Shown: piece by piece, positions 2,498 to 33,154 of the stretch
Position numbering within the stretch: the stretch's first letter is position 1
How the letters are laid out: each line of letters opens with the position of its first letter
Virus record (IMG/VR): IMGVR_UViG_3300037882_000370
Coordinates: 1-37,511 of that record
Source: a virus
Length of the DNA stretch: 37,511 bases
Strand: one strand, 5' to 3'
The notes under the pieces: generated by a model
What the model was told of the DNA's origin: nothing
What the model saw: the letters and a program-made list of their open reading frames with translations, nothing else
The model's database searches: none
Translations under genes and position numbers: made by a program

Positions 2498-2733
2498 CCT
2501 GGGTCCTTACCAGGCCACTTCTCGGGTTCTTCAAGTACCTCATGAGTCTTGGCGTCATGTAGAGCCATTTCCATGCACCGGATCAGGTCTGCCGGTGTTT
2601 CATCCTTGTCAACGATGAAATCAACAGGGTCCATCGTCATGGCCCAAGGGAGGCCATCGTCATCGTAGAAAACCTCATGGAGGCCGTAATACCCCTGTAG
2701 GCGCTTGACGATACGGTAGTTCCAATGGCTCAT
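2494..2733 (-). CDS. Hypothetical phage protein
   Basis: 79 residues beginning MSHWNYRIVKR, an opening I have seen in many small unassigned phage proteins, followed by a short beta-like stretch and an acidic helix (TPADLIRCMEMALHDAKT). No catalytic motif, signal or membrane segment. It overlaps the phosphoesterase stop and the DUF3310 start by four bases each (ATGA type), so it is translated as part of this operon. Confidence 0.7.
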   Translation of the reverse strand: MSHWNYRIVKRLQGYYGLHEVFYDDDGLPWAMTMDPVDFIVDKDETPADLIRCMEMALHDAKTHEVLEEPEKWPGKDPG

Positions 2734-16135: not shown

Positions 16136-16500
16136 TACGTCCTACGGAGGTCGATCTTGAAGTCTATCGAGTCGCCAGAAAGTAGGGCGATGGCGGAAAA
16201 ATCAGCCAGAATCTTTGCCGTGCCGGAAGCCGTGCCGTCCACGATGAATAGACCTACTTCCGTGATGGTCTTATCCGCGTTGGCCGTGATCACCCCAGAC
16301 CACCGATTGGTGTTGTCCGTAGGTTGGTTGGCAGAGGCCGCCACACGGGCCTGCGTCTCAGTGACCAACTGGGTAGAAGCACGGGTAAAGGAACCTGCCC
16401 CAGTACCCCACCCGATGAAATAGGTTGTCGGGCTGGAGACGGACTTGTCGATTACATCACATTCGTGTGAAGCCCCGGCACTTGTATACACGACCGTCAT
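16135..16500 (-). CDS. Phage structural protein, tail fibre/appendage associated
   Basis: 121 residues. The pattern YFIGWGTGAGSF...LVTETQARVAAS...TITEVGLFIVDG...LSGDSIDFKIDL is one I recognise from small phage structural proteins encoded beside tail fibres. Beta-rich, no signal. Its ribosome binding site AAGGAG lies inside the 3' end of the HNH gene, so insertion of the homing gene kept this gene's translation signal. Confidence 0.7.
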   Translation of the reverse strand: MTVVYTSAGASHECDVIDKSVSSPTTYFIGWGTGAGSFTRASTQLVTETQARVAASANQPTDNTNRWSGVITANADKTITEVGLFIVDGTASGTAKILADFSAIALLSGDSIDFKIDLRRT

Positions 16501-17216
16501 TAAGTATACTCCTTAGACGAATTGACGTTTCTCTTCCGTCTTACTCTTGGTGGATTTGGTAGTTCTTTGTCTCTATTTGGGTCTTCGTGGGGGCAAAATC
16601 CCCAGTGTCCCCGCGCTGTGTTGCAGTTGTGGCATAAAAGCCTGTACCCTTCAGGAAACTCGTTTCTAATGAGCCATCTATAGAACTTAGAACCATATGA
16701 TAGCCCATTCTCTTGGATATGCTTTCTGCCGCCCCCGTTGATATGGTCAACAGCCAGAAACTGCCACCTAGATTCTCCGCAGCACGCACATTTATTCCCA
16801 TATGCGGTGAACACAGCGGCTCTAACCCGCTGAGATTCTAGTTTCTTTGTTTCTTTATATCGCTCTGGGTTTTCCGCCGCCCATTTTTGGGTTGCCTCTT
16901 TCGCCTTCAGCCTAGCTTCCGGGCCACGCCTATTCCTGCATTTCTTAGCTACCGCGTTATCTTTATCCAGTAGTCTCTGATAGCCATCAGGATCGGTAGA
17001 CTTAAGCTTGGCTCGGTTGTTCTTAGCCCACAAATTCTTATACTCGCGGCGGGCGTCATTCTCCTGCTTCACGCCATCCTTGCCAATCTTGGCGCGGTGT
17101 CTGTTCGTAGATTCTCTGCTCTTGACTAGATAGGCTTCATAAGCCTCTGGATCAGACTTGATCCGATCCATCCTCCTACGATGCCACTCTGCCTTGTATG
17201 CCGTCTGGTCTGTCAT
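16500..17216 (-). CDS. HNH homing endonuclease, free-standing
   Basis: 238 residues. Residues 1-130 are a basic helical DNA-binding region (many Lys/Arg, KWAAENPERYKETKK). The HNH core is at 140-200: zinc Cys143 and Cys146, AVDHINGGG with catalytic His158, and LCHNCN with Cys195 and Cys198. It sits between two structural genes, sharing one base with each (TAATG junctions), as expected for a gene that homes into intergenic sites without breaking neighbours. Confidence 0.88.
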   Translation of the reverse strand: MTDQTAYKAEWHRRRMDRIKSDPEAYEAYLVKSRESTNRHRAKIGKDGVKQENDARREYKNLWAKNNRAKLKSTDPDGYQRLLDKDNAVAKKCRNRRGPEARLKAKEATQKWAAENPERYKETKKLESQRVRAAVFTAYGNKCACCGESRWQFLAVDHINGGGRKHIQENGLSYGSKFYRWLIRNEFPEGYRLLCHNCNTARGHWGFCPHEDPNRDKELPNPPRVRRKRNVNSSKEYT

Positions 17217-20593: not shown

Positions 20594-21346
20594 TTACAAA
20601 TTCTCCAGATATTGCTTATCCGTAAGCCCCATCTTGCGGGCTACATACTGTTGTTCTGGGGTCAACGCCTTGGCCTGACGCGGTTTACCTCCAGCCCCGT
20701 CAAGGACCGGAGCCGTTGCAGGCTTGGAGCGCCGTGAGCCCATTTCCTTATCCAGGGCGGATAGAACCGCTTGCATCCCGTTCATTGAGATGGACGGGTC
20801 CGCAAGGATACGGTTTGTAATCTCAACGGCTGATTCGTACTGGGGGTGATGGGCAAGAGCCCAGGGACGCTTGATGTTCCCCGTCTCATCCAGTTCCGTC
20901 AGCCAATTATTGAATTGCGCCAGTTCTTGCTGGCTCATCTCGTTCTGAGGCTGATGGACGGGCCTCTCAGGCTCCTTAGCCTTGGGGGCTTCCAGAGTGA
21001 CTAGACGCTCTGTAAGCTCCGCTACCGCCCGGTAGTTACCATCCTCGTGAGCCTTGGCGAGGGCGGCCTTGATGACCGCCTTGTTGTCCGCCGTCTCTTT
21101 CTGGGTGGTCTTAGCCTCGAACTGTTCCAGCTTTTCCTTGAGGGCTCGGGTAGTACCTACCAGCTCCTCATTGACTCTCTGCTGGAACTTTAACTGACCA
21201 TATACCTTATCAAACCTAGCCTTGACTTCCGGGTCGTTGATTTCAACGAATTTACTACCAGGTTTCTCCTCTGTCTGCTGTTCCGCGCTAGGAGCCGCGC
21301 TCTCTGCCTCCTGAGTTACCTCAGGGGCTTGCTCTTCGTTCATCAT
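20594..21346 (-). CDS. Scaffolding protein
   Basis: 250 residues, acidic and helical. Low-complexity Glu/Ala/Gln N-terminus, coiled coil around 40-110 (LVGTTRALKEKLEQFEAK), and a compact basic-ended C-terminal segment (LTPEQQYVARKMGLTDKQY) of the type that binds capsid protein. Gene order portal, GroES-like, scaffold, capsid supports the call. Two ATGs at 21346 and 21343 are equivalent. It overlaps the GroES-like gene by 26 bases. Confidence 0.8.
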   Translation of the reverse strand: MMNEEQAPEVTQEAESAAPSAEQQTEEKPGSKFVEINDPEVKARFDKVYGQLKFQQRVNEELVGTTRALKEKLEQFEAKTTQKETADNKAVIKAALAKAHEDGNYRAVAELTERLVTLEAPKAKEPERPVHQPQNEMSQQELAQFNNWLTELDETGNIKRPWALAHHPQYESAVEITNRILADPSISMNGMQAVLSALDKEMGSRRSKPATAPVLDGAGGKPRQAKALTPEQQYVARKMGLTDKQYLENL

Positions 21347-21620
21347 CCACCACGATTGCTAGCAGGTCCTCGTCAGCCGCGATAAACCAGTCCCCATCAG
21401 GAACCGCCTTACCGTCCTCGTCGAGCCAAGCACCTGCGTATTGGCCCACGATTGCGGTCATCCCCGGTTCGATGGACTTGTCACAAGCCGGCCCAACGGC
21501 CACCACCTTGCATTTCATGGATGCATGGCGCTTCTGACTTTCCTCGGGAACCAGGATGCTCCCTACCTTCTTCAACGTCTCTCGCTTAAGCAGTACGCGC
21601 GCAAAAAGAGGCTTTAGCAT
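21321..21620 (-). CDS. GroES-like co-chaperonin
   Basis: 99 residues, the length of GroES. Core features: KPLFARVLLKRE at the start (GroES: RPLxDRVxVKR), GSILVPEES as the end of the mobile-loop region, KVVAVGP, MTAIVGQYAGAWL (the GDxVxFxxYxG strand) and DEDLLAIV at the end (GroES: EEDILAIV). The mobile loop appears short. Phage co-chaperonins such as T4 gp31 replace GroES on host GroEL to fold the capsid protein; its place between portal and scaffold fits this. No GroEL gene is present. Confidence 0.85.
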   Translation of the reverse strand: MLKPLFARVLLKRETLKKVGSILVPEESQKRHASMKCKVVAVGPACDKSIEPGMTAIVGQYAGAWLDEDGKAVPDGDWFIAADEDLLAIVVDDERRASP

Positions 21621-21627
21621 TCACCAC

Positions 21628-22455
21628 CTATGTGTAGAGTAGATCGGCCAACTTCGTCAGTTCGTTGTTGCCGACGTTTAACCCACGCCTTTTGAAGTAT
21701 TCCCACTGGGTAGGGAGAACCTCGGTATCCATGTTTATCCCCCCCTGCTCATTGATAAGCCGCCTGCCAAAGAGACTGTCATGGTAGTCAAACGGCCCGT
21801 CAAACGTCGCCACCGCAGCCTCCCTTTGAAGGGGATGCATTGTCTCACTCAGATAAGAAAACCCTCCGGGAATCCTCATCTCTGCTGGTCTTTTGTATTT
21901 CTTATTTGGTGTGATATTAGCCTGAGGTGAGGCTTGTTTCCCCTGGGGGACAGGAGGGGGGCCGTCAAAAAAGTTATTAGGGATGGCGCCCCCGGCTGGG
22001 ACCATGTAATTTCCGCCTATATTCCCAGGGGTGCCCACGGCATACCCACCCGGAGCGCGGAAACCAGAGGGGTTGAATCCGGGGCTAATACCGGCGTGTT
22101 CAGCCGCGATTCCTGTTCTCTGTGAGAGGCCGCCTGCCAATGCGTTATAGATAGAGGCACCATACCCCCTATCGCTATTCGTCGGGTCTGCCTGAGACCC
22201 CATGACGTTGCTGCCCCCAAGGAGATGGGAGGCGTAGGGCGCAACCTGCCCCATGACGCCGGGGAACATGGAAGACGCCATACTTAGGTTGATGGGGGAC
22301 CAGAAATCCCCACTAGAAATCCCCTCAAAGGGGCCGAAGGAACCAGGGCCTTGCCCCATGTTGTGATTGACATACCCCGCCCCGCCTACTGCGGTAGCTT
22401 GGCTCCCCCTAGGAGGTGTACGCGGGCGATTGAAGCTGTTCACATTCGTAGGCAT
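21628..22455 (-). CDS. Gly/Pro-rich virion-region protein
   Basis: 275 residues. The first 190 are rich in Gly, Pro, Ser and Asn and look disordered. The last 70 contain LFGRRLINEQGG and EVLPTQWEYFKR, which parallel the C-terminus of the neighbouring 174-residue protein, so the two may be paralogous. No known family. Probably a virion component by location next to portal. Confidence 0.55.
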   Translation of the reverse strand: MPTNVNSFNRPRTPPRGSQATAVGGAGYVNHNMGQGPGSFGPFEGISSGDFWSPINLSMASSMFPGVMGQVAPYASHLLGGSNVMGSQADPTNSDRGYGASIYNALAGGLSQRTGIAAEHAGISPGFNPSGFRAPGGYAVGTPGNIGGNYMVPAGGAIPNNFFDGPPPVPQGKQASPQANITPNKKYKRPAEMRIPGGFSYLSETMHPLQREAAVATFDGPFDYHDSLFGRRLINEQGGINMDTEVLPTQWEYFKRRGLNVGNNELTKLADLLYT

Positions 22456-22456
22456 G

Positions 22457-22981
22457 TCATGTCCTCGTAAGCGCGCCTAGAAAACCGCGCGTATCATTTG
22501 ACCGAATTTCCTTGCCCATGATTCTCTTGACAAAATCAAGCTCTGTCGGGAGAATTTCATCATACCCAGCCAGTGACCCGTCGTCTTTGATAAATCTATT
22601 CAAGGTCAAATACTTATACCTATCAATGGCCTCGGGCGACCTGTATTTAGACTCCCCCTGCGTGGCCCCAGTAGCGATTTCAGAGGCTTCCTGGATGGGG
22701 GTTAGCCCAAGGCCAGAACTGAGGAATTGGGGCCTGTTGACCACCGAGGTAGGGCGCTTGAATGAGGTAGGGTCTGGCGCCGGACCTTTTGGTCCCTCTA
22801 TCGGAGATGGAGTTGTGAAGCTAGGTTGCTTCACCTTCTCATTACCCTGAAGGGCACTATAGAGGCTGGTAGCCGCCGTCAGACCCGTGGCGATGAGGGG
22901 GAGAATGGATGAGCCACCAGTAAAGCCCCCGCCGAACCCCCCACCAAAACTGCTCCCGAAAAGATTACTGAAGAAGCTCAT
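22457..22981 (-). CDS. Gly-rich virion-region protein, paralogue-like
   Basis: 174 residues. N-terminus is Gly/Phe/Ser-rich with a short hydrophobic stretch (LPLIATGLTAATSLYSALQG), then a Pro-rich linker, then LTLNRFIKDDGSLAGYDEIL and TELDFVKR, matching the pattern of the neighbouring protein's C-terminus. Its ATG overlaps the stop of the overprinted 82-residue gene as ATGA. Function unknown; virion role inferred. Confidence 0.6.
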   Translation of the reverse strand: MSFFSNLFGSSFGGGFGGGFTGGSSILPLIATGLTAATSLYSALQGNEKVKQPSFTTPSPIEGPKGPAPDPTSFKRPTSVVNRPQFLSSGLGLTPIQEASEIATGATQGESKYRSPEAIDRYKYLTLNRFIKDDGSLAGYDEILPTELDFVKRIMGKEIRSNDTRGFLGALTRT

Positions 22982-23226
22982 GGCTCGTTAAGTTGGTCCT
23001 CTACCCATTGAAGGACTTCCTGTTGGCCCTTGAGACGGTTCAGGTGGTCCCATTGTGGCGCCTGCTGCCACTCCGTTTCCGGGTGGAACCGCTCCAGGAG
23101 CGCCCGAAAGAGCCATTGGCCCTCCGGCCTCTTGACCCATTCCCATAGGTCCGCCCTGGACGGGGCCTCCAACACCGGGTTGGACTGCTCCGACCATTCC
23201 GTAAAGGAACGCAAGGTGCGTCTCAT
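22978..23226 (-). CDS. Small protein overprinted on the portal 3' end
   Basis: 82 residues, 239 bases of which overlap the portal gene in another frame. It reads as a normal helical protein, with LWEWVKRPEGQWLFRALLE and DHLNRLKGQQEVLQWVEDQL, and Trp/Gln/Leu spacing resembling small conserved proteins that follow portal genes in other podoviruses (from memory). Its stop overlaps the next gene's ATG as ATGA, and GAAGAG precedes its ATG. In the portal frame the same bases give a Gly/Pro/Met-rich tail that can tolerate such constraint. Confidence 0.6.
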   Translation of the reverse strand: MRRTLRSFTEWSEQSNPVLEAPSRADLWEWVKRPEGQWLFRALLERFHPETEWQQAPQWDHLNRLKGQQEVLQWVEDQLNEP

Positions 23227-25129
23227 TGTGACTCTTCAATTTGGAGATGGCTTCAGGGGACAGCCTGTGCATGTAGGCCGGATCACTCATGATCGCCTCA
23301 TGCGACTGCATGTGCATGAGGTGGTCCTGGTCAGGAAGAACAGGCGGCATCGGAACACCCGGCATAATTGCCATCATGTTCTCCTGCGCCGGATCATCCA
23401 CACGCATCGGCGGCTCGATCTTCGGCAGAACCTCGTCAATGTTCTGCGCCCCGATAGCCTCAAGATACCTACGAGAGGCGTTCCTGAGGTGCATGGGGCT
23501 CTGGAGGACAATCGGATTCTGGGCAAGGTGCTGCCACTCGGCTTCCGCCTGTGCCAGCTTCTCCCGCTTCGTAATGGCCTCAGGATCGGCAATGGGGATG
23601 ACCTGTAGGTCTTCCTCATAGTCCATCCGGGAGGCGCCCTCCCTCTGAAGCTGCCCATCCACGTCAAGGACGGTGAAATACTCGTGCGGGTCCATATACT
23701 TCCGGTTCAGCCGGAAGACCTTAGCTAACTCATTGGACCAGGAGTTGACGACGCGGCCAAAGAGGGACGAGTAGGAACCACCCGTCTGCTCCAGGAGAGC
23801 AAGGATGGTCGTAGGCTGCATCACCTTCTCGGTCTGCCCCGTCGCCGCGTCCGTCACGAATGACAGGCGGTCAGCACGAGCAAGGAGAAGCTGCATGATC
23901 TCAGGCAATACCGGAGAGGGTCCGGGGAACTTGAACTGGAACAGACCCTTGTTGATGTCTTCCATGGAGTTGGAGATTTTCTGGAACTTGCCCAGAGCCA
24001 TCTTCAACTCGCCACCCTTGATGTTCAGGGCGGAAGATACGAAGCCGGAGCTGTTCCCAGCATTTGCAAGAGTGCCTGCGTCCACAGTCTGGCGGGTCAG
24101 CTTGTTGATCGCGGTGTTGAGCTTGCCAATCAGGTGCCCATACCCAAGACCATAGAACCCGTCAGGATTCTTGAGGAACTGGTAGTGGGTGTAATACTCC
24201 ACCGGAGCCATATCGTCCGTGGGGAAGCCGGCCTCGTCCGTGTCCCACCGGATAGACAGTCTCAGGAGCTTACGGGATTCCGTGTCCACCGTCGCGATGT
24301 ACGGCTCTCCGATACCGTCTTGATCCAAGTCAATGACGGTGTGCTGCTCCAGAATCTTGCAATGCTTGCTTTTGCCAAACGGGGTGTCCTGGAGGCCCAT
24401 GGCCTTGTCGTGGGCCTGGTCCATCTCATTGGCTTGGACAAAGGATACCGGGACGGCGGGTTGAGTCAGATACCCCTTGGCCGCCAGAATCTTGGTTCTG
24501 TTCTCCGGCAGCCAGATAACCTCGGTCCTCCGGTCAATGTCTTCGAGGCTCCGAGGTCCCGTCCCATAAGGGATGATTAGGTCTACAGCACGGACATTCT
24601 TAACGACGTTCTTCTTCTTGACCGGATCGTAGTAGGTCTTGGTGAAGAAGGAGCCGTGTAAGGGGAGAGAGAGAAGTAAGGAATCCTTGTTTTCTACATA
24701 GTCCTTGTCCCGAGCCATCAACTGCCAAGACATATGCTTCTTGACCCGTTCCGCCCGTTCCTTCGAGGAAGGATCAGGGTTGCCTACAGGAACAGCCTGG
24801 ATGATGTTCCGCGAGGGGAACATCTGCTTATAGGCTCGGGAGTGGAACTGGTTACAGGCTTCCGCCAACTGCGGAATAGACTCGTTGGATGACCCATCCC
24901 ACGGGGGGTTTACAGGATCGTCCCTCTGGAAGTAGAGGTTGAGCCATTCCGTGTGCATCTTCATCCACTCGGAACGACTGTCTTCATCCTCCTGACAGGA
25001 GTCCAGAACGTCGTTGGCAATGCTAGAAGCCTCTCCCTCCGTAATGTAGGGGACAAGGTTGATTAGTTCTGGATGTTGATAAGCGTTCTGGTCGAGAAGT
25101 TGTTGTACGAGAGCCGGAATGTCAGCCAT
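22988..25129 (-). CDS. Portal protein
   Basis: 713 residues, the length of P22-like portals. N-terminal helical region (WMKMHTEWLNLYFQRDDPVN, PPWDGSSNESIPQLAEA), the clip/stem-type middle (GFYGLGYGHLIGKLNTAINK, LTRQTVDAG), and a long helical region rich in Gln and Met. The last 80 residues are low-complexity Gly/Pro/Met, overprinted by another gene. It forms the dodecameric DNA gate at the capsid vertex. Unusually, it is separated from the terminase by the sugar/methyl transfer cassette. Confidence 0.88.
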   Translation of the reverse strand: MADIPALVQQLLDQNAYQHPELINLVPYITEGEASSIANDVLDSCQEDEDSRSEWMKMHTEWLNLYFQRDDPVNPPWDGSSNESIPQLAEACNQFHSRAYKQMFPSRNIIQAVPVGNPDPSSKERAERVKKHMSWQLMARDKDYVENKDSLLLSLPLHGSFFTKTYYDPVKKKNVVKNVRAVDLIIPYGTGPRSLEDIDRRTEVIWLPENRTKILAAKGYLTQPAVPVSFVQANEMDQAHDKAMGLQDTPFGKSKHCKILEQHTVIDLDQDGIGEPYIATVDTESRKLLRLSIRWDTDEAGFPTDDMAPVEYYTHYQFLKNPDGFYGLGYGHLIGKLNTAINKLTRQTVDAGTLANAGNSSGFVSSALNIKGGELKMALGKFQKISNSMEDINKGLFQFKFPGPSPVLPEIMQLLLARADRLSFVTDAATGQTEKVMQPTTILALLEQTGGSYSSLFGRVVNSWSNELAKVFRLNRKYMDPHEYFTVLDVDGQLQREGASRMDYEEDLQVIPIADPEAITKREKLAQAEAEWQHLAQNPIVLQSPMHLRNASRRYLEAIGAQNIDEVLPKIEPPMRVDDPAQENMMAIMPGVPMPPVLPDQDHLMHMQSHEAIMSDPAYMHRLSPEAISKLKSHNETHLAFLYGMVGAVQPGVGGPVQGGPMGMGQEAGGPMALSGAPGAVPPGNGVAAGATMGPPEPSQGPTGSPSMGRGPT

Positions 25130-26498
25130 TAAATAGTTCTGTAAACTCTTTACGCTTCTTGTGTTTCACCCTGAACAGGTGGGGGATGAGTCCGTCACCC
25201 CTAACCTCGACATGAATGTCCTTGCCTAGCTTGATCAGCTTCTCGAAGTCCTGAGCCTGGGCCAGAAGCTCTAAGTCAGTCCAGAACTGCCGGCCCTCGC
25301 AGTCCACCATAATCGGGTCCTTCTTCTTGAGCCCGTGTGTTTCCTCCTTCGTAGGCTTCTCCTTGTAGGACGAGTCGAAGCCGATCAGGATGAACTTGCG
25401 GAACCCAATGGAGTGGAGAACGGACATACCTCGGGAGGCCGCTGTAGAGCCCCCGGAAATCATCATCGCGTCCCCAAGCTCCTTCTGGACCGCCTTGGCC
25501 TCCCCGGCACCCACGAAGGCGTGGTAGCCCCAAATCTGGGCCTTGGCCTCCACCAGCCTGTCCATCGTTACAGGATGGACCATGGAAGCCGTTATGTATC
25601 GGATGTCCTTGTGGGGTGTCTCGATAAAATCAAGAACGTGAGGCCGGGGGTCGAGCAAGAGACAGGCCCACGGGATGATTCCTTCCTTGATAAGCCAATC
25701 ATGTGAGGTTTTGACACAGAAGATGTAGTGCCCCTCTTTTCCCGCGATCTCCTTAACTTCCTCAAGAAAGTCCAGCCTCGATGGCCCGCCTGAAACGATG
25801 ACGGCCGTTGCGTCATGCGGCTCACATTCCTCCAGATATTTCTCAAAAAACTGGACGTTGTACTTTACATTGGCCTGGATGTTCTTCTCAGGCACGCAAT
25901 TGCGGGTCTGCACCTGAATCTTCATCTTACCAGGCCACGCCTGAGGCGGCTTCACAGCCATCCTGACTAGACCACCCTCCCTCACTGGATCGGTGGCCGG
26001 CATGATCAAGAACTCTTCCCCGTGGATGACCGTGTTGCACCCGTACAGCTTGGTGTCAACGCAGTTACCGCTCTCGTCCTTCTGATACCAGTCATCCAGG
26101 ACGACGGTCTTGCAATGCTTCAGAAGGTCATAGTCGCTCTTGATCGTCTCGACGGAATGGCCCCCATCGATGAACACGAAGGCATCATCGGGAATCTTGA
26201 CCTTGGGGAGAGTTTCCTTGCTGTTCCCCTCGTGTAGTTCGAAGCTGAAGCCATGGCCTTCCAAGGTCTTTACAACCTGCTCCATGGAAACGCGCTTCTT
26301 GGCGTTCAATTCCGCCGAGTCAATCTCCGGGGTCCCTGTCTCGAACAGGTCGAAGCCGATGTAATGGACATTCGGGTTATGCTTGAGTGCCGTCTGGCAC
26401 ATATCGAGGGCTCTTAGGCCGTTCCACGTCCCAACCTCGACAATCGTTGTCGGTTTGACGCTCTCAATCAGGGTATTAAGCTGGCTATACCGATTCAT
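25122..26498 (-). CDS. Methyltransferase-DUF115 (Maf/MptE-like) fusion protein
   Basis: 458 residues from ATG 26498, preceded by GAAGG; a TTG at 26504 is less likely. Residues 1-185 are a class I SAM methyltransferase: IVEVGTWNGLRALDM (motif I), HYIGFDLF, and FVFIDGGHSVETIKSDYDLL. Residues about 230-400 match DUF115 (6-hydroxymethylpterin pyrophosphokinase MptE-like and flagellin glycosyl Maf proteins): AVIVSGGPSRLDFL, CLLLDPRPHVLDF, STAASRGMSVLHSIGF and FILIGFDSSY. Likely acts on glycans or glycosylated proteins. Overlaps the portal start by eight bases. Confidence 0.8.
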   Translation of the reverse strand: MNRYSQLNTLIESVKPTTIVEVGTWNGLRALDMCQTALKHNPNVHYIGFDLFETGTPEIDSAELNAKKRVSMEQVVKTLEGHGFSFELHEGNSKETLPKVKIPDDAFVFIDGGHSVETIKSDYDLLKHCKTVVLDDWYQKDESGNCVDTKLYGCNTVIHGEEFLIMPATDPVREGGLVRMAVKPPQAWPGKMKIQVQTRNCVPEKNIQANVKYNVQFFEKYLEECEPHDATAVIVSGGPSRLDFLEEVKEIAGKEGHYIFCVKTSHDWLIKEGIIPWACLLLDPRPHVLDFIETPHKDIRYITASMVHPVTMDRLVEAKAQIWGYHAFVGAGEAKAVQKELGDAMMISGGSTAASRGMSVLHSIGFRKFILIGFDSSYKEKPTKEETHGLKKKDPIMVDCEGRQFWTDLELLAQAQDFEKLIKLGKDIHVEVRGDGLIPHLFRVKHKKRKEFTELFNG

Positions 26499-26913
26499 TA
26501 ACAACCTTCTTTACTATATCGCTTGAGTGAATGTCTTTGAGCTTATGGTCCCCCCACCCAAAAAGGACCTTCATCCCCAGTTCCTCGCAAACATTCATCT
26601 CCGGGGTGTTCAGGTGTGTGCGATCCCCCCCTTTGATGAACCAATCATCCTTCTGGGCGTATTCCTTGATCGTCTCCACTACAGTCCCATCGTCGTCCTT
26701 GGCCTTTACCACCACGTCCACATACTTGATGGCCTTCAAAATCTCCGCCCGGTGCTCCCAGGGCATGAGGAAGTAACCCTTCTTCCGAATCAGCCACTCA
26801 TCCGTGTTCAAGACGGCCCATACCTCCCCGTAGCCCTTGGCGGACTCGCGGAATAGAGACAGATGCCCAACGTGGAGAGGGTCGAAGCCACCGGAGATGA
26901 ATAGACGCCTCAC
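26485..26913 (-). CDS. Cytidylyltransferase-family nucleotidyltransferase
   Basis: 142 residues from GTG 26913, which overlaps the upstream stop as GTGA; a longer start at 26994 would overlap the previous gene by 85 bases and is rejected. FISGGFDPLHVGHLSLF carries the HxGH nucleotide-binding motif (14-17), and DIHSSDIVKK near the end matches the ISTS-type motif. Family members make CDP-glycerol or ADP-heptose-type activated sugars/alcohols. Its partners in the cassette suggest a sugar donor for the glycosyltransferases. Confidence 0.82.
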   Translation of the reverse strand: MRRLFISGGFDPLHVGHLSLFRESAKGYGEVWAVLNTDEWLIRKKGYFLMPWEHRAEILKAIKYVDVVVKAKDDDGTVVETIKEYAQKDDWFIKGGDRTHLNTPEMNVCEELGMKVLFGWGDHKLKDIHSSDIVKKVVNESV

Positions 26914-27614
26914 AGCGTCCCTCCATAGACCTCGGTCTTCTTCCTCGGGCCTTTCTGATGGGTCATGTAGTCTCCCAATATCGTCTCGGGCCAAACATCG
27001 GTTCCCGATATGTTCTCCGAGAGGTTAAAAAAATTTGAGCCCATGGAGGACCTGACCACGTCCCACACAAAGCTGTCATGCCACTCCCGGAGGGTGAAGA
27101 TTTCCCCTGACACATACGTTCTACGGAGTTCTTGAAGGAACCTTTCGGCCTCCGGGAGGTTGTAGCACATGAACCCGCACTCTGAATGGTGCCAGTCCTT
27201 GCGCCCCAAATAACTGGCGATCACCCTCTTAGGGCACGCCTCCGAATAGAAGATGCGGTCAACAGGTCTATAAGTCTCCACATCCGCATCAACCCAAATC
27301 CATTGATCACATTCCGGCCTTTCCTTGCTCGTCTGGGCAAAGACCTTGTGACAGAACTTCACCGCTTGATAACGGTAGTCCAACTTGCGGTCCCTGACCC
27401 CGTTGGCAACCGAGTCCCCGTCGTACTGTTCGAGGAACTCCATGTATTCCCCGTCCTTCCGCATATCGACCCACTGGTTCTTGTCATCCAGCGGATCACC
27501 ACGGTAGAACACCATAAGGGGGATGTTCCAATAGGTGTTGAAGGACTCGACGAAGCGCCGGCCGTATAGCTCGTACCCCTCCTTCGAGAAGGTCGTCAGG
27601 GCCACCCGCTTCAC
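26910..27614 (-). CDS. Putative glycosyltransferase (GT-A type, DxD)
   Basis: 234 residues from GTG 27614, which overlaps the small membrane-protein stop as GTGA; the longer ORF start is rejected. N-terminal strand KRVALTTFSKEGYELYG, then DQWIWVDADVETYRPVD with the metal-binding DAD (109-111), and HHSECGFMCYN later. The layout fits a nucleotide-sugar glycosyltransferase but the family is not clear. Follows the other GT gene and precedes the cytidylyltransferase. Confidence 0.65.
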   Translation of the reverse strand: MKRVALTTFSKEGYELYGRRFVESFNTYWNIPLMVFYRGDPLDDKNQWVDMRKDGEYMEFLEQYDGDSVANGVRDRKLDYRYQAVKFCHKVFAQTSKERPECDQWIWVDADVETYRPVDRIFYSEACPKRVIASYLGRKDWHHSECGFMCYNLPEAERFLQELRRTYVSGEIFTLREWHDSFVWDVVRSSMGSNFFNLSENISGTDVWPETILGDYMTHQKGPRKKTEVYGGTL

Positions 27615-27712
27615 AGCGTTACCGTGATGATTAGAGCCGTAATCCCCGCAGAGAAGCCGGCCCACAACAGGATCGGCAGCCAGTGGCTACCTGTCTGATG
27701 TTTTGCCGGCAT
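27611..27712 (-). CDS. 33-residue single-span membrane protein
   Basis: Reads MPAKHQTGSHW then a transmembrane helix (LPILLWAGFSAGITALIITV). A strong purine-rich site (GGAGGGGGAAAG) precedes ATG 27712. Overlaps the upstream glycosyltransferase by 26 bases and the downstream one by four (GTGA). Translation signals and hydrophobicity support it; its role, perhaps membrane anchoring of the cassette enzymes, is a guess. Confidence 0.55.
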   Translation of the reverse strand: MPAKHQTGSHWLPILLWAGFSAGITALIITVTL

Positions 27713-28418
27713 CTTTCCCCCTCCAATACTCCCTGTGCCACTCCTGAGCAAATTCCCCCATTTCATATCCAGGGAAATTGGGGACACCATTGGTAAAATG
27801 TAATGCCTTAGGCTTTGAGTGCCCCACCAGCCAGTTCCACGCCTCGGGCAGAGGACCAATCTGCTCGTTTTCCAGCCACGAGAACCCGTGGAGCCACGAG
27901 CCCGTCTGGCTGTTCACTACTTCCCTGGTCAATACCTGATTGGCCCCGTGGGAACAGTTCCACAGGATCAGGGAGGACCAATTTTTACGGGGGTAGGGCA
28001 TCTGCCACTGCCCATCCATCTTGTAGGAGATGGCGGGCGTGAAGCGGTGCTTGACAACCTGCACCGCGTACTTGTCGTCTTTTAGCGCGAGGAGTTCCGC
28101 GATGTCTTCCAGGACCAGGAAATCGCAGTCCATAAAGACTGCCCAACCTCGATAGCCACAAAGATAAGGAACGAGAAAACGACTGAACGAGAAATCAGTC
28201 GAGAACGGCTTGCCGTCAACCATGTCATATCTTTGATTCCCGTCTCTTCGTTCCGCTCGCCAGTAGTGGCCCTTGTCCCTTAGAATGTGAAGATCAAGGG
28301 GGTGGATCACATACGGAATGCTCGCCCTCTTGGAAATACTCTTTGTGCAAACGTCGTAGGCTTCTTTCTCTCGATGGTCAAAGCCAACATAAATTGGTAG
28401 CGGGCTATCTTCTGTCAT
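27687..28418 (-). CDS. Glycosyltransferase family 8-like protein
   Basis: 243 residues. YVGFDHREKEAYDVC at the N-terminus, FSFSRFLVPYLCGYRGWAVF then MDCDFLVLEDIAELL with the DxD (97-99), RKNWSSLILWNC, and PKALHFTNGVP near the end: the order of motifs in GT8-like retaining transferases (sugar nucleotide binding, acceptor loop, His). AGAGGACC precedes ATG. Would transfer a sugar to host or phage surface glycan. Confidence 0.78.
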   Translation of the reverse strand: MTEDSPLPIYVGFDHREKEAYDVCTKSISKRASIPYVIHPLDLHILRDKGHYWRAERRDGNQRYDMVDGKPFSTDFSFSRFLVPYLCGYRGWAVFMDCDFLVLEDIAELLALKDDKYAVQVVKHRFTPAISYKMDGQWQMPYPRKNWSSLILWNCSHGANQVLTREVVNSQTGSWLHGFSWLENEQIGPLPEAWNWLVGHSKPKALHFTNGVPNFPGYEMGEFAQEWHREYWRGKDAGKTSDR

Positions 28419-28424
28419 GGTCCT

Positions 28425-28925
28425 CTAGTCGTTTTTCATGACCTCGTAATCAATATGAGGCGGAGCAATCTCCTTGATCAGATGCTCCCACCAGATAAGA
28501 GGCCGGATTGTCAAATGGCAATTACGCCCGTCTGGTAGTGTTTTCTTGGCTGCCCTTGGGCAGACCGTGAAAAACACACACTTTTTGGCCTTGGAGAAAA
28601 TCTCCTCGATTACGCCCTTGAGTTCTTCCTCCGGGATGTGCTCAAGAACATCAACGCAGACTACCATATCGAACATGGAGTCCGGAACCTTGTCATATTC
28701 CGGGACAGCAGGGTCGTATTTCGTAACGTCTACGCCCCATTTCTCCGCGAGGTCCATATCCTTCCCATACTGAACGCCCTGACCGCACCCATAGTCCAGT
28801 AGGGTCTTGACGCCATGCCTCTTCACCATATCGTGGATGTAGTTGGCGAAGATAAGGGTTGTCAGGCCGCTGAAGGCACCCTTTAACATAAGCTCTCGAT
28901 ATTGGTCAGCTAAGTCGCGCTTCAC
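28425..28925 (-). CDS. Class I SAM-dependent methyltransferase
   Basis: 166 residues. LLDYGCGQG (42-50, motif I), KYDPAVP (post-I acidic) and FDMVVCVDVLEHIPEE (85-100) are clear for a small-molecule-type methyltransferase. GTG start, preceded by GGGAGG, overlaps a preceding 13-codon reading frame as GTGA. Substrate unknown; given neighbours, a sugar or lipid is likely. The 39-base gap upstream holds only that short frame. Confidence 0.82.
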   Translation of the reverse strand: MKRDLADQYRELMLKGAFSGLTTLIFANYIHDMVKRHGVKTLLDYGCGQGVQYGKDMDLAEKWGVDVTKYDPAVPEYDKVPDSMFDMVVCVDVLEHIPEEELKGVIEEIFSKAKKCVFFTVCPRAAKKTLPDGRNCHLTIRPLIWWEHLIKEIAPPHIDYEVMKND

Positions 28926-28964
28926 GACAGCCTCCCGACAAGTTTTTGAGCCATGTTCATCATC

Positions 28965-29741
28965 TCACAACCCCTTCACATACGCCCAACATTCCCCTCG
29001 TTTCATTTCCTCAAGCGTCCATTGCTGGTACGCCAGCCAATTGAGCCAAGGTTGGATATCTGGATAATGAGGTATCTCGATATCAGAAAGACCCCACCCA
29101 ACAGGCTCAGCAGCACTAGGCCCAAGGACAACGGTAGGAATGCCAGCCAGGATAGCATCAATAGCGGTATTGGAAGAATAAGTAACAAGACACCAAGCAT
29201 CTTTCAACGCCTCCTCAATGGGGATGTCAGACTGCTTCTCTTTTACCACGACCGGCCTATCCGTCCAAATCCTGATCTCGTCCCGTACTGCCCGATTCCA
29301 CGCCCCCGGATCGATCCCCCGGAGGTTCGCGACTGCGGTTGCAATCGGGGCGAAGACGATGGAGGAACCTGTCCTCTTCCATGGGGCCGGCTTGACCCCC
29401 ATGCTGCGGAAGCGGTCGCCGGGGTACTTCTCCGCGTTCTCATCCGACCACCAATCGGCCTGTAGGCCGTTCTTGGAAACCCGGAAGTACCCATCATAGT
29501 ACCCGCGTTTCATGTAACCATGGTCGATATGGTAGTAGGTCCGGTCAACCCACTCACAGGTCTTGATGATGTCGCCACACCCCCTCAGGATTCCATGCAC
29601 GATGGCTGGGCCGGGGTGCAACTGGCCTGTCGGCTTGATACGGGCTCCACTCCCCGCACAGAAGGACTGGGCGATAACATCGGAATGTCCAGGGTCTCCG
29701 GGGATATGACCGGTCGTGTAAAATGTGGGCTTAATGATCAC
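28965..29741 (-). CDS. Putative capsule/LPS-type glycosyltransferase (GT-B-like)
   Basis: 258 residues. SIVFAPIATAVANLRG, WTDRPVVVKEKQSDI, then LVTYSSNTAIDAILAGIPTV and VLGPSAAEPVG; the last block (SSNTAxDAxxxGxPTVxxG) is that of the donor-binding half of GT-B capsule and Kdo-type transferases. GTG start preceded by AAAGGGACATT, 11 bases after the terminase. First gene of the cassette. Confidence 0.65.
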   Translation of the reverse strand: MIIKPTFYTTGHIPGDPGHSDVIAQSFCAGSGARIKPTGQLHPGPAIVHGILRGCGDIIKTCEWVDRTYYHIDHGYMKRGYYDGYFRVSKNGLQADWWSDENAEKYPGDRFRSMGVKPAPWKRTGSSIVFAPIATAVANLRGIDPGAWNRAVRDEIRIWTDRPVVVKEKQSDIPIEEALKDAWCLVTYSSNTAIDAILAGIPTVVLGPSAAEPVGWGLSDIEIPHYPDIQPWLNWLAYQQWTLEEMKRGECWAYVKGL

Positions 29742-29752: not shown

Positions 29753-32077
29753 CTAAGTCGCATACGGATCGGCAATCTTGCCCCTTGCTTTATCAGCCTC
29801 GTCACCAACGGAAGCCCTATATCTATCTTCGGGAGTAGAAATATACGGCCTGGACCTACATGCGTACGCCACTTGATCGTAGCAATTATGGACGATGGCC
29901 CCACCCCCCACAATGAAGCAATGGATGTCAGGGACGTGGATGTTGTAGACGTTTTCTTTTCTTGAGGTCCGTGTAATACCCCGGATTCCTACGGCGGAAA
30001 GCGCGCTGCTCACAAGTGCCGGAGCATCTTTTGACAACTCTCCGTCTGGCGAGAAAAGACTTGCCACATTCCTGACAAACACATTCAAAACGCGGCCCAA
30101 GAGCGGCAATCTTTCTGAATTGCTGCCGGTGCCACTCTCGTCCTTGCTCTGACCTGTGCCACTCAGAGGCTTTAGGCCGCATTCTTGTTTCCATATGCCA
30201 TTTGGCGTAAGCAATGCGGTCCGGTTCTCTAGTGTGATTCCTGAGATGAACGGAGGCTGGAAGAAGCTCCAGGTTTTCGATTGCGTTGTTAGACTTGTCG
30301 CCATCCTTGTGATGGCAATGGAAACCCTCAGGGATTGGCCCGTTGTGGTGTTCCCATACGACTCGGTGCAATCTAACGCCTTTTCGCTGGTAGTATTCTC
30401 CGCACTTCCAGTAGGTCTTGCCGAGGAAGACTTGCCCCATGACGCCTCCTTAGGGTTGGCGCATAGGATATAGTCGTTATAAGCCAACTCGTCAATCCTT
30501 CGATACCTTAGGTCGGCGCACAATACCGGATGGCCGCCAGTCCCCTCGATGACTTGACCGTCCTCCAATTCCAGCCTGTAAATCTCCGCATTCTCCTGAG
30601 TCATGCCTAGATTGATATACGGCATAAACCCATGATGTGTAAGGATTTTCCCAGTTTTAGGCAATTTTGCAAGCTCTGTCTGGCCCTCTGGGGTATAGAC
30701 CTTCGTGGAGCCAATCAGACAATGGTCTTCTTGCTTGGTATCCGGCCCTTTTTCGTGGTCCACCTCGTCCAACACGAGGGGGGGGACGGTACGCCAGAAA
30801 TGGGTACAGTTCTCCGTGACGAACAACATGGGGTCATCCATGACCTGCCCGTCATCCATCACCCGTGGATTCCCCGCCAATCTAGCAAGGACCTCCATGT
30901 AGTTCCTTTTCCGGTCCTTCTCCGATCTCCTGAAGATCAATCTAGCGTCTTCCTGAGCCATCCATTCTACCACGGAAGGCCCTGATTTCATTGCCCAACA
31001 TTCGGAGTCCGCGATCCTATAGTCAATCGCGTCGTTCCTCATTTGTTCTCTGTCAATGATGCCACGAGCTACTTGTTGCGGGGCGAGCCTAAGCCCCTGG
31101 TTAGCACGCCCGTTCCACCCATACCATTCGTCGTACATGATAAGGGCTCCAGGGGGAAGCCACCTCTCAGGCCACAACTCCCGTCCTGCAAGAATCGCAC
31201 CTTCACTGACCGTAAACCATCCAATGGAGAAGGGACTGGCAGTACCCCAGTCCATGACCATGAACCGGGTCCAGTGTTTTGGAGGATCAAATCTACGCAA
31301 CTGGTGTCGGTCCCGAGAGAGAGTATGCAAGGCTTGACCGACGACGGCATCCCAGTCCCCATCTCTTAGGGCCTTTGCTAATTCCGGGGTTAGAGCCCCA
31401 AAGGACCCCGCATATCCTGTATCGAGGTATCTATTATCCGCCATCTTCGCGGGGATGAAGATGGAGAGCCACCCCTGGTCGTTCTTGTCCGAGGGGCTTT
31501 TCATCGTATCGTCGTAGAACAGGGTTTCCGGGGGAACCTGATCCAGGAATATCTGCTTCAAATAGGTGTGTGCAGGCCCACCAGGGTTGGTGGCCATCAC
31601 GAACCTTGGAAGAAGCTCCTTATCCCTGTCAGGAACCCAGGAACCTAAACGGTTTCTGGTTTTGAGGTATGAAATCTGGTATTCGGTGAAGCGGGCTGCT
31701 TCATCGATACCCACCCAGTGCATCTCAGCACCCAGATACCTGTGTACGTCGTCGTCCCGATCGCAATAGCAGAAGACGAGGGCGGAGCCGTTACTGAAGT
31801 CGAAGGTCTTGCGGGAGTGGTTATACGACCCAATCGGCCCGTCTGGAACCTCCGCCCGCATCTTCTTGATGTGGTTGTCTTCCAACTCGGGAAGAGTCTT
31901 GCGGAACAGGTACGCCTGACAACCAGGATTCTGCAAACAGAACATGATGGCATCCCAACGGATGCTCTGGGACTTTCCCCCACCCGCCGCCCCTCCGTAG
32001 AGGATTTGGCGTGCCTTGGTCTTGTGGAGGAGCTTCTGTCTAGCCTGAGGCTTATACGGTATCTCGAAATCAGCCAA
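29753..32077 (-). CDS. terL: Terminase large subunit with intein
   Basis: 774-residue precursor. ATPase: Walker A GGAAGGGKS (28-36), Walker B WVGIDEAA (Asp125-Glu126), MATNPGG (161-167). Nuclease: MDWG (Asp276), ADSE (Asp357), then EDH (450-452) and CYDQVAYACRSRP after the intein, which splits the third acidic cluster. Residues 453-731 are an intein; the spliced enzyme has 495 residues. TTG start with AGG upstream. It packages DNA into heads through the portal; splicing is required to join the nuclease site. Confidence 0.92.
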   Translation of the reverse strand: MADFEIPYKPQARQKLLHKTKARQILYGGAAGGGKSQSIRWDAIMFCLQNPGCQAYLFRKTLPELEDNHIKKMRAEVPDGPIGSYNHSRKTFDFSNGSALVFCYCDRDDDVHRYLGAEMHWVGIDEAARFTEYQISYLKTRNRLGSWVPDRDKELLPRFVMATNPGGPAHTYLKQIFLDQVPPETLFYDDTMKSPSDKNDQGWLSIFIPAKMADNRYLDTGYAGSFGALTPELAKALRDGDWDAVVGQALHTLSRDRHQLRRFDPPKHWTRFMVMDWGTASPFSIGWFTVSEGAILAGRELWPERWLPPGALIMYDEWYGWNGRANQGLRLAPQQVARGIIDREQMRNDAIDYRIADSECWAMKSGPSVVEWMAQEDARLIFRRSEKDRKRNYMEVLARLAGNPRVMDDGQVMDDPMLFVTENCTHFWRTVPPLVLDEVDHEKGPDTKQEDHCLIGSTKVYTPEGQTELAKLPKTGKILTHHGFMPYINLGMTQENAEIYRLELEDGQVIEGTGGHPVLCADLRYRRIDELAYNDYILCANPKEASWGKSSSARPTGSAENTTSEKALDCTESYGNTTTGQSLRVSIAITRMATSLTTQSKTWSFFQPPFISGITLENRTALLTPNGIWKQECGLKPLSGTGQSKDESGTGSNSERLPLLGRVLNVFVRNVASLFSPDGELSKDAPALVSSALSAVGIRGITRTSRKENVYNIHVPDIHCFIVGGGAIVHNCYDQVAYACRSRPYISTPEDRYRASVGDEADKARGKIADPYAT
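29928..30440 (-). CDS. HNH endonuclease nested in the terminase intein, different frame
   Basis: 170 residues. VRLHRVVWEHHNGPIPEGFH then HHKDGDKSNNAIENLELLP form an HNH core (His43/His44, Asn56), and CVCQECGKSF with C139/C143 form a zinc ribbon. ATG 30440 is preceded by AAGGAGG at four bases, a near-perfect ribosome binding site inside the intein. The reading frame is shifted by one base from terminase. It ends inside the C-terminal splicing block. Likely a separately made homing enzyme for the intein. Confidence 0.87.
   Translation of the reverse strand: MGQVFLGKTYWKCGEYYQRKGVRLHRVVWEHHNGPIPEGFHCHHKDGDKSNNAIENLELLPASVHLRNHTREPDRIAYAKWHMETRMRPKASEWHRSEQGREWHRQQFRKIAALGPRFECVCQECGKSFLARRRVVKRCSGTCEQRAFRRRNPGYYTDLKKRKRLQHPRP
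30445..30451 (-). promoter_or_regulatory. Internal ribosome binding site for the nested HNH gene
   Basis: AAGGAGG on the minus strand, four bases before ATG 30440, lying within intein codons for NPKEAS of the terminase frame. It decides that the nested frame is translated independently. Confidence 0.75.
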
Positions 32078-32246
32078 GATCGAAGCCTAGCTTTGCCTTT
32101 TGCCGGATCAGAGGATTCCCTTGAGCGTCTAGAAGCCCGGTCTTTTCAGGCTCAATAGCCTCATAGACCGTCACCTTGTTGAACTCCAACTCACGATCCC
32201 ACGACTCGTCCGTATTGGTCGTCGAGACGTACAATATCTTCCTCAT
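32070..32246 (-). CDS. Hypothetical protein upstream of terminase
   Basis: 58 residues from ATG 32246, preceded by GGAG at six bases; the in-frame ATG at 32258 lies in that site and is rejected. MRKILYVSTTNTDESWDREL then a beta/helical end. No family. Overlaps the cupin gene by 56 bases and the terminase TTG by eight. Not obviously a small terminase, which is otherwise unassigned here. Confidence 0.55.
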   Translation of the reverse strand: MRKILYVSTTNTDESWDRELEFNKVTVYEAIEPEKTGLLDAQGNPLIRQKAKLGFDLG

Positions 32247-32568
32247 CACACTCTCCAATGGCCACCTCGATCACCTCAAGGACCTCATCCCCAAGGTTGA
32301 TCAGGCGGTGGTCCGTGTTCTTGGGGATGTAGATGGAATCCCCTACATCCAGGACACGGTTCTTATTGTCGAGGGAGACAAAGGCGGTACCCTTAACCAC
32401 CACCCACTGTTCGGTCCTCCCCCTGTGCCTCTGCAAGCTAAGGGCTTGTTTTGGCTCTACAACAAGGGTCTTCACCCAGTAACTAGGTGCTACCCTCATT
32501 AACTGAAAGCTCCCCCACGGTCTCGTCTGCCACGAACTCACGAGGTTTTCCAACGATTGTTCCATCAT
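32191..32568 (-). CDS. Mannose-6-phosphate isomerase-type cupin
   Basis: 125 residues. RPWGSFQLMRV, LSLQRHRGRTEQWVVVKGTA, LDVGDSIYIPKNTDHRLIN match the C-terminal type II phosphomannose isomerase cupin of ManC/AlgA, with the metal His pair (QRHRGRTEQW). The enzyme interconverts fructose-6-P and mannose-6-P. Only the cupin is present, without the GDP-mannose pyrophosphorylase half. It could feed the sugar cassette 2.5 kb downstream. Start uncertain (ATG 32568 versus internal codons). Confidence 0.8.
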   Translation of the reverse strand: MMEQSLENLVSSWQTRPWGSFQLMRVAPSYWVKTLVVEPKQALSLQRHRGRTEQWVVVKGTAFVSLDNKNRVLDVGDSIYIPKNTDHRLINLGDEVLEVIEVAIGECDEEDIVRLDDQYGRVVGS

Positions 32569-32764
32569 CCAATTTCACCATGCATCCAAGGAAGTCAACG
32601 GTGTCCACGAACAACTGTACGTTGTCCACAAGGTCCTTCCGGGTCTTTTGGTCGAACTTGAAGTTGCCGCCACGAATCCTGTGCCGTACATCATCAAGCT
32701 CATTCACCACTTGCTCGGGGGTCATCGCCGTCGTGTAGACGACCTCCACGATGATGCTTGGCAT
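32483..32764 (-). CDS. Hypothetical protein
   Basis: 93 residues: IIVEVVYTTAMTPEQVVNEL at the start, helical middle (RKDLVDNVQLFVDTVDF), beta end (CMVKLDDGTIVGKPREFV). No known family. Overlaps both neighbours (65 bases with the DnaA-like gene, 86 with the cupin), as in much of this early region. Could be the small terminase by position, but shows no HTH. Confidence 0.55.
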   Translation of the reverse strand: MPSIIVEVVYTTAMTPEQVVNELDDVRHRIRGGNFKFDQKTRKDLVDNVQLFVDTVDFLGCMVKLDDGTIVGKPREFVADETVGELSVNEGST

Positions 32765-33041
32765 CTAACCGTCTCCTCAGTTCTTGAATCGCCGCGTATG
32801 TCCTCGGCTCGCTCTGCCGCCTCCTGTCAACCTGCCTTACCCCGTATAGAACCGTGGTATGATCCCGGCAAAATATCCGGCCTAACGCCGGATAGCTCAG
32901 TTTCGTATACTCCCTGGCCAGCCAGTAGGCTATTTGCCTCGCCTCGCGAAGAGCCCCGGCCCGCCGCTCGGTATAAAAGTCAACCTCGTCCACTCCATAG
33001 AACTCAACAACAGCCGCCCTGATGTCGTTTACACTAACCAT
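32700..33041 (-). CDS. DnaA domain IV-like DNA-binding protein
   Basis: 113 residues from ATG 33041 (the longer frame start at 33143 is rejected). VVEFYGVDEVDFYTERR, AREARQ-type REARQIAYWLAREYT, PALGRIFCRDHTTVLYG (DHTTVLYG at 60-67) match DnaA domain IV including the DnaA signature. The ATPase domain is missing. It could bind DnaA boxes, recruit or block host DnaA, or regulate early genes; lying upstream of terminase, a role in packaging-site recognition is another possibility. Confidence 0.82.
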   Translation of the reverse strand: MVSVNDIRAAVVEFYGVDEVDFYTERRAGALREARQIAYWLAREYTKLSYPALGRIFCRDHTTVLYGVRQVDRRRQSEPRTYAAIQELRRRLDAKHHRGGRLHDGDDPRASGE

Positions 33042-33154
33042 ACAACCCCCAGGATTAGCCCAAGACCCAGAAGGATGGATAATACCATAAACGCCGCGCG
33101 GGGCAACCTCTTGCCCCTCGCTAGATGCTCCAGATAGTCCCAATCAGGAAGCAT
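33029..33154 (-). CDS. 41-residue single-span membrane protein
   Basis: MLPDWDYLEHLARGKRLPRA then a transmembrane helix of about 20 residues (MVLSILLGLGLILGVVW). Basic residues before the helix predict an inside N-terminus. Overlaps the DnaA-like ATG by 13 bases. No strong ribosome binding site upstream, hence moderate confidence. Function unknown. Confidence 0.45.
   Translation of the reverse strand: MLPDWDYLEHLARGKRLPRAAFMVLSILLGLGLILGVVWLV

Follow-up and report, generated by a model that had tools for sequence, protein, structure and literature searches.

A glycosyltransferase and methyltransferase cassette between the terminase and portal genes of an uncultured phage clade

Enzyme genes at the terminase–portal junction

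The 37,511-bp virus record IMGVR_UViG_3300037882_000370, analyzed here in its entirety (hereafter, the window) and probably a fragment, carries six enzyme genes (the cassette) between the genes for the large terminase subunit (TerL) and the portal protein. Its structural genes lie on the minus strand, as do all features of this section, and are transcribed toward lower coordinates in the 5′ to 3′ order of a helix-turn-helix gene of the DnaA C-terminal type, a cupin gene, TerL, the six enzyme genes, portal, a GroES-like gene, and the capsid gene. TerL and portal are parted by 4.6 kb holding the six co-directional genes. The left border, TerL (29753–32077), matched PHROG 979 (3e-33) and PHROG 2 (3.6e-21) in exteins interrupted by an intein; the right border, portal (22988–25129), matched SU10_portal (PF23899, 3.2e-8, above the cut-off) and PHROG 1216 (3.7e-14). 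The presence of six enzymes at this place, as given by the initial annotation, was borne out by profile matches, by the predicted GT-B fold of the first protein, and by the homology of the DxD protein to GT-A domains.

Adjoining TerL, as it does in the relatives, is the gene for a glycosyltransferase-like protein with a predicted GT-B fold (28965–29741). It is followed by an accessory S-adenosylmethionine (SAM)-dependent methyltransferase, MT1 (28425–28925; PF13489, 1.1e-8; PHROG 24759, 2.9e-23), and by a core GT-A glycosyltransferase (27687–28418; PHROG 28018, 2.9e-61), whose Pfam match to Glyco_transf_8 (PF01501, 7.8e-4) reached 19.5 bits against a gathering threshold of 24.3 and which is hence called GT8-like only. 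The next protein, an enzyme with a DxD motif (26910–27665), has no family match of its own and is homologous to a GT-A domain; it is followed by an accessory nucleotidylyltransferase (26485–26913; PF01467, 2.5e-12). The last gene before portal encodes a core protein in which a Methyltransf_24 domain (PF13578, 4.7e-10) is fused to a DUF115/Maf-type domain (PF01973, 1.5e-22); it is referred to as MT-DUF115 (25122–26498).

The start positions of the nucleotidylyltransferase and MT-DUF115 genes were corrected to 26913 and 26498, respectively, and that of the DxD gene probably to a GTG at 27614, where a candidate codon was read and which the homologues suggest. Four-base overlaps had been taken to join the genes into one unit. 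One true 4-bp overlap (DxD/nucleotidylyltransferase) is indeed present. Four junctions have gaps, of 11, 39, 6, and 21 bp, and the 21-bp gap widens to ∼72 bp with the DxD start at 27614; two more are overlaps of 14 and 8 bp, the latter between MT-DUF115 and portal. Promoter- and terminator-like sites in the cassette were counted at chance level, which gives no sign of transcription signals of its own. In GC content the island does not differ from the remaining window, so base composition gives no sign of recent acquisition.

None of the six enzymes contains a credible membrane segment, as judged by hydropathy only. The small membrane protein that had also been assigned to the cassette could not be upheld: the only strongly hydrophobic small ORF (29003–29200, 65 aa) lies out of frame and wholly inside the GT-B gene, and in six homologues this reading frame has stops or is non-hydrophobic. 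A mannose-6-phosphate isomerase-type cupin (32191–32568) does lie, as described, upstream of the terminase, at a distance of 113 bp. It corresponds to the C-terminal domain of GMP_PMI (PF01050, 4.7e-30; TIGR01479, 3.2e-31, below the full-length cut-off) and does not belong to the conserved cassette: among 27 cassette records, a match over the cut-off came from the window alone, the match in the record of locus L089 being sub-threshold.

Conservation across the clade

Viral contigs were sampled by terminase, which avoids the bias of a search with glycan genes, and the best 80 of at least 579 relatives were compared (up to 80 loci were retained per locus search); the terminase query alignment was itself made from cassette-bearing loci. 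When TerL shared at least 49% identity with the query, the GT-B gene was found downstream of it in 19 of 19 loci, which represent 14 clusters at 95% TerL identity. GT8 and DUF115 were present in 18 of the 19 and portal came next in 17, the missing cases being contigs that end first. In contrast, the GT-B gene was found in none of 61 loci with a TerL of at most 43% identity, 46 of which show at least 3 kb of downstream sequence. Among these distant loci, L309 and L363 carry a DUF115/MT-type gene ∼4.3–4.5 kb further on, and L319 carries GT8 upstream. Thus, because close loci sampled by terminase carry the cassette and distant ones lack GT-B, the cassette is a fixed trait of one uncultured phage clade and not a local accident. 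Sampling by portal (best 80 loci) returned only L082 and L182 with a cassette label, most contigs being short, and was therefore not treated as a test. A lack of joint conservation of the genes had been named as the observation that would speak against a common pathway; when this was tested, the GT-B, GT8, and MT/DUF115 core proved to stay at the TerL–portal junction across the clade.

The distance between TerL and portal was 3.6–8.2 kb in the 20 measurable of 22 relatives examined, and in two public phage records with related portals, Alcaligenes phage QDWS535 and ct2os315, the two genes directly adjoin each other. In the pelagiphage HTVC027P (L087, 5549–9680), the junction is filled by two large genes (483 and 892 aa), for which no informative family match was obtained.

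Pairwise protein distances among 19 clade members were strongly correlated between TerL and portal (Mantel r 0.95), TerL and DUF115 (0.96), and portal and DUF115 (0.97), and somewhat less so between TerL and GT8 (0.88) or TerL and GT-B (0.76; each p ∼0.0005 by permutation). DUF115 is therefore inherited like a gene of the structural module, GT-B more loosely. Such co-inheritance supports a role in the virion without proving it, because physical linkage alone can yield high correlations. This is also what would be expected had a glycan cassette been inserted once into the ancestor of the clade and then kept by linkage, with no virion-specific role, and the turnover of the accessory genes agrees with such passive carriage. 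We nevertheless regard it as improbable: catalytic motifs and order of the core remain intact down to ∼50% TerL identity, and locus L173 retains the core set although it is ordered differently with respect to portal and TerL.

Around the core, gene content varies. A scan of 62 proteins (58 accessory ORFs and four DUF115 proteins) returned FkbM-type methyltransferases (11), Methyltransf_23 (4), radical SAM/SPASM proteins (2), HNH domains (2), and an epimerase (1), and MT1 is present in part of the clade only. Such a pattern fits a core that is conserved and tailoring genes that can be exchanged.

Core enzymes and their candidate acceptor

In MT-DUF115 of the window, Methyltransf_24 spans residues 22–129 and PF01973 residues 208–382 (80.6 bits, cut-off 34.6), so that a Rossmann/MT-like domain precedes a central DUF115 domain as in the Maf family. 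In the parts available of one source, Maf is described as having at its N-terminus a degenerate Rossmann fold in which the methyltransferase motifs are weak, its central domain being pfam01973 (PMC11339370). The SAM site of the phage protein looks intact in the alignment (EVGTWNG, an invariant D50, and IDGG). After PF01973 only ∼78 residues follow, and the helical, chaperone/flagellin-like C-terminal domain of Maf is absent, both here and in the model of a relative (L138, see below). The only NCBIfam match was the flagellin modification protein PseD, at 36.3 of 670 bits far below the full-length cut-off. By sequence profile, Maf (5mu5, 4.6e-5) is nearer than MptE (0.041), and DUF115 is thus nearest to Maf, a cytoplasmic flagellin O-glycosyltransferase of a family that transfers CMP-activated ulosonic or nonulosonic acids to Ser/Thr.

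A pattern scan confirmed 353 MT-DUF115 relatives in environmental viruses. The DxD domain is fused in front in 75 of 101 proteins (DxD-MT-DUF115, ∼760 aa), 23 show the MT-DUF115 profile alone, two are permuted (DUF115 first, then methyltransferase), and one is double. GT8 accompanies 91 of 99 DUF115 entries, usually directly upstream; both sets include the window (L083) and repeat fetches (L081 = L092 = L170; L091 = L167). DxD, MT, and DUF115 probably act in one pathway, because they are fused in relatives even though DxD is separate in the window. Proteins with DUF115 ahead of MT were seen in other phage groups (L309, 15700–17046; L009, 5887–8715; L043, 6646–9360); DUF115 and MT have therefore been joined more than once. 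A search of 50,697 phage records returned no match to the window MT-DUF115, and two matches to a 768-aa relative, which cover its N-terminal DxD part only. The protein is thus largely invisible to work with isolates, despite being widespread in viral metagenomes.

The fusion could not be traced to cells. A scan of cellular genomes gave at least 25 relatives, and among the matches listed only L265 contains MT-DUF115. L265 and L180 (QZKR01000020.1, 50118 bp) are apparently one phage contig with the cassette, binned in a metagenome-assembled genome of Myxococcales, which may reflect a host link or a binning error. The other listed relatives match the MT part only, including the alphaproteobacterial DxD-MT and MT-DxD fusions without DUF115 (L268, 9236–10600; L267, 1396–2895).

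The tripartite protein was modeled for L138 (pLDDT 83.9, pTM 0.50, three domains). Residues 1–240 resemble GT-A enzymes (α-1,3-galactosyltransferase, LARGE1, and COLGALT1; Foldseek, placed on the N-terminal part by elimination) and residues 241–463 COMT-type O-methyltransferases (VIA Z 15–17). Residues 247–751 matched Maf 5mu5 with Z 18.3 over 346 aligned residues at a root mean square deviation (rmsd) of 13.9, so the relative orientation of the domains is not matched. A sialyltransferase did not appear in the VIA listing for DUF115, an absence that is uninformative. The DUF115 fold itself (residues 479–736) matched the pterin pyrophosphokinase MptE (8sd5) nearly as well as Maf (Z 17.0, rmsd 3.0, 196 aligned), as might be expected if the protein acted on small molecules, for instance as a pterin pyrophosphokinase-like enzyme, and the island comprised auxiliary metabolic genes with no tie to glycans. 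The closer sequence match to Maf, the DxD glycosyltransferase fused in most relatives, and the neighboring glycosyltransferases make this very unlikely.

Motifs of the remaining proteins are consistent with catalysis. In 12 aligned GT8-like sequences, D97 and D99 of the DxD motif are invariant, as is H207, which we take to be the metal-binding histidine, and the DxD enzyme has likewise kept its motif. The nucleotidylyltransferase (PDB 3elb, 1.3e-9; 1coz, 5.7e-9; NCBIfam rfaE_dom_II, 1.4e-13, below the cut-off) belongs, by these matches, to the superfamily of glycerol-3-phosphate and ethanolamine-phosphate cytidylyltransferases and heptose-1-phosphate adenylyltransferases. The proposal of the initial annotation that the genes form a glycan pathway is backed by the domains they encode, by the DxD and SAM motifs, by the predicted folds, and by the conservation of the genes as one block.

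As to what this pathway would serve, the initial annotation had named three outcomes, decoration of virion proteins, recoating of the host, and modification of DNA, of which the present data favor the first over the second and disfavor the third. Phages do glycosylate DNA, and a weak methyltransferase match is to PHROG 2675, labeled "DNA methyltransferase" (2.5e-6). The folds are nevertheless those of an O-methyltransferase and of enzymes for protein or lipid glycans, and the thymidylate synthase/hydroxymethylase family (PF00303) was found in none of 17 fragmentary records; glycosylation or other hypermodification of the phage's own DNA is accordingly considered highly improbable.

Recoating of the host is raised chiefly by the GT-B protein. 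Its model (258 aa, pLDDT 92.6) has a KpsC/WbbB-type fold, nearest to retaining β-3-deoxy-D-manno-octulosonic acid (Kdo) transferases (Foldseek, WbbB and KpsC, E 2.3e-6); against KpsC, VIA gave Z 12.3 and rmsd 4.5 over 222 residues, with other enzyme classes from Z 9.1 downward. Its sequence matched DUF6716, a putative glycosyltransferase family (1.2e-4, below the cut-off). Retaining β-Kdo transferases have, in the accessible portions of two papers, conserved catalytic QXXXD and cytidine monophosphate (CMP)-binding HP motifs (PMC12887879, PMC10148158). No QxxxD occurs in the window protein and none is conserved across 27 aligned phage sequences; neither is HP, found in the window protein only at residue 42. 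The catalytic motifs thus did not support the Kdo transferase identity hinted at by the fold, and a relation of fold only is retained. CMP-Kdo may still be a candidate donor for GT-B, kept in play by a true KdsB, the enzyme of CMP-Kdo synthesis, next to portal on the opposite strand in L089 (6180–7046, minus strand; NCBIfam, 299.4 of 281 bits) and by KdsB and KdsA near GT8 in cyanophage S-SCSM2R. Maf enzymes are able to use Kdo, according to the available parts of PMC7591256 and PMC11339370. As a general partner, KdsB was not supported and is a lead only: CTP_transf_3 was found in one (L089) of the 50 DUF115-bearing records searched, which are part of the DUF115-bearing loci and include L168, in which DUF115 is fused to DxD.

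A cassette that remodels the surface glycan of the host (lipopolysaccharide core or O-antigen, or capsule), and so masks receptors against superinfection or against loss of progeny on debris, is the main rival explanation. KpsC, WbbB, and KrkA build the termini of capsule and O-antigen, KdsB adjoins portal in L089, and on a Nisaea contig a related DxD/MT fusion adjoins genes for GDP-mannose dehydratase and FkbM. Against it, neither GtrA (PF04138; 0 of 27 records, perhaps fragments; control matches in 7 of 14) nor a Wzx-type or other flippase nor a tyrosine integrase (PF00589; 0 of 27, none of them marked complete) was found in the 27 records, the window cassette holds no strongly hydrophobic credible gene, the core genes are co-inherited with packaging genes, and DUF115 is nearest to protein glycosyltransferases. 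We therefore consider host remodeling unlikely, though by no means negligible.

Sequential glycosylation of a protein in the cytoplasm fits better than lipid-linked surface assembly, given that the enzymes lack a credible membrane segment and that no flippase, GtrA, or integrase was found in the 27 records. The location of the genes within the packaging module, with which they are co-inherited, points to a virion protein as the likeliest acceptor. Flagellin glycosylation by Maf-type enzymes is cytoplasmic with soluble donors, as stated in the parts available of PMC7591256 and PMC4065374. On balance, we hold it modestly probable that the enzymes of the cassette, soluble and acting in the cytoplasm, O-glycosylate a virion protein with a methylated glycan. 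The cassette, vertically inherited and fixed in the clade as part of the packaging/portal module, would be expressed late, and the Maf-like DUF115 and/or the GT8-like and DxD enzymes would place a short glycan on a virion protein and lengthen it, either ahead of virion assembly or in its course. GT-B might add a further, possibly acidic, sugar, and the fused MT together with exchangeable methyltransferases (MT1, or FkbM in relatives) might O-methylate, and thereby cap or diversify, the glycan. An activated precursor could be supplied by the nucleotidylyltransferase, plus an epimerase or KdsB in some relatives, most donors presumably coming from the host. Candidate acceptors, named by inference only, are portal, capsid, and two Gly/Ser/Pro-rich proteins encoded after portal.

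Several points weigh against virion-protein glycosylation. The GT-B fold is that of Kdo transferases that act on cell-surface glycans, in capsule and O-antigen; DUF115 lacks the helical, acceptor-like C-terminal domain of Maf, and its fold resembles MptE almost as closely; the high Mantel correlation is partly expected from linkage; and other phage groups place GT8 and DxD-MT-DUF115 not at this junction but near genes for DNA replication or ejection. Absences count for little because the records are fragmentary, and both virion glycan and acceptor are proposals drawn from the gene content. A more specific form of the proposal is offered tentatively, and we would rather doubt than expect it: DxD-MT-DUF115, split into two genes in the window, may be a self-contained phage protein O-glycosyltransferase with methyl capping, a Maf-type enzyme outside flagella, that places a host CMP-Kdo-derived, possibly ulosonic acid-bearing, O-methylated glycan on a portal-proximal or capsid protein and belongs to the assembly module of every clade member as an obligate component.

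Neighboring genes and known systems

The two Gly/Ser/Pro-rich proteins (21628–22455 and 22457–22981, both minus strand) have similar-looking C-terminal ends and are followed by a GroES-like co-chaperonin (21321–21620, minus strand) that is common to the structural operon of many relatives. Upstream of the cupin, a gene at 32700–33143 (minus strand) encodes the C-terminal DNA-binding domain of DnaA alone (Bac_DnaA_C, 5.5e-19). The TerL intein (29885–30721, minus strand; 279 aa, residues 453–731, H|C...HN|C; PF14890, 3.9e-9) sits near the C-terminal part of TerL, its boundaries having been derived by comparison with the intein-less, 60% identical TerL of L081; no match was found among the other loci then compared, and it plays no part in glycan function. 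A second intein probably resides in a metallophosphoesterase ORF (2730–4622, minus strand; Metallophos at 71–216, a LAGLIDADG endonuclease at 279–334, and PHROG 221 across 36–622), and an HNH endonuclease-like gene in the structural region (16500–17216, minus strand; PHROG 2255, 4.6e-9) is a third likely mobile element of this phage. Also encoded are a papain-family protease (528–1295, plus strand) and, in the tail region, a small MotA/TolQ/ExbB-like protein (5895–6317, minus strand).

If virion-protein glycosylation holds, it has become part of the core assembly module in an entire clade of environmental phages, by way of a Maf-like family best known from flagella. The GT/MT/DUF115 protein would then make cytoplasmic O-glycosylation accessible through a single soluble protein, and with it the question of why phages sugar-coat their particles. 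A literature search confined to open-access papers, and hence weak as a negative, found none that deals with this junction or with DUF115/Maf-like proteins in the virions of phages. Within the literature searched, the clade-fixed position, the union of a Maf-like DUF115, a methyltransferase, and a GT-A domain within a single protein, and the division into core and tailoring genes are apparently new.

With the Maf/PseD flagellin O-glycosyltransferases (PF01973; 5mu5), the phage protein shares the DUF115 domain, the preceding Rossmann/MT-like domain, the best PDB profile match, and the top VIA match. Unlike Maf, its MT looks intact rather than degenerate, the C-terminal helical bundle is missing, a GT-A enzyme is fused or linked, and the gene lies in a phage packaging module; unlike PseD, it falls short of the full-length model score. 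The GT-B protein has, over most of its length, the predicted fold of KpsC (GT107), WbbB (GT99), and KrkA (GT140), but is smaller and lacks the conserved QxxxD and HP motifs. Cassettes of the gtrABC type, which carry phage-borne glycosyltransferases for O-antigen conversion, differ in that the enzymes here are soluble and neither GtrA nor an integrase was found in the 27 records.

Subsets of GT8, DxD, GT-B, and MT likewise occur together in ct7QV12, Pelagibacter phage Mosig, Stenotrophomonas phage DLP6, and Synechococcus phage S-SCSM2R. In none of these four does the glycan locus lie between TerL and portal, and no MT-DUF115 was seen in the stretches read. In ct7QV12 (L264, MW202713.1), a tibC-like glycosyltransferase, DxD, a methyltransferase, a GT-B-like ORF, and a pyridoxal phosphate-dependent enzyme lie just upstream of TerL–portal, the DxD and GT-B ORFs being unannotated. 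Three glycosyltransferases are mentioned for HTVC023P-type pelagiphages, with no role assigned in the text available (PMC9599517).

The linkage of glycosyltransferases and a methyltransferase to structural genes, a trait of phage virion glycosylation systems, is present in the window. Gene sets for virion glycosylation in mycobacteriophages were reportedly described by Freeman et al. in 2023. In cluster O mycobacteriophages, three glycosyltransferase genes downstream of an O-methyltransferase gene are said, in the part of the source available, to modify capsid and tail tube (PMC11600133). That phages use glycosyltransferases and an O-methyltransferase on virion proteins has thus been described before. 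The present cassette resembles the mycobacteriophage sets, by description only, in its tandem glycosyltransferases and O-methyltransferase within a phage genome; unlike them, it places DUF115, KpsC-fold, and GT8-like enzymes at the TerL–portal junction, and its virion glycan is a prediction.

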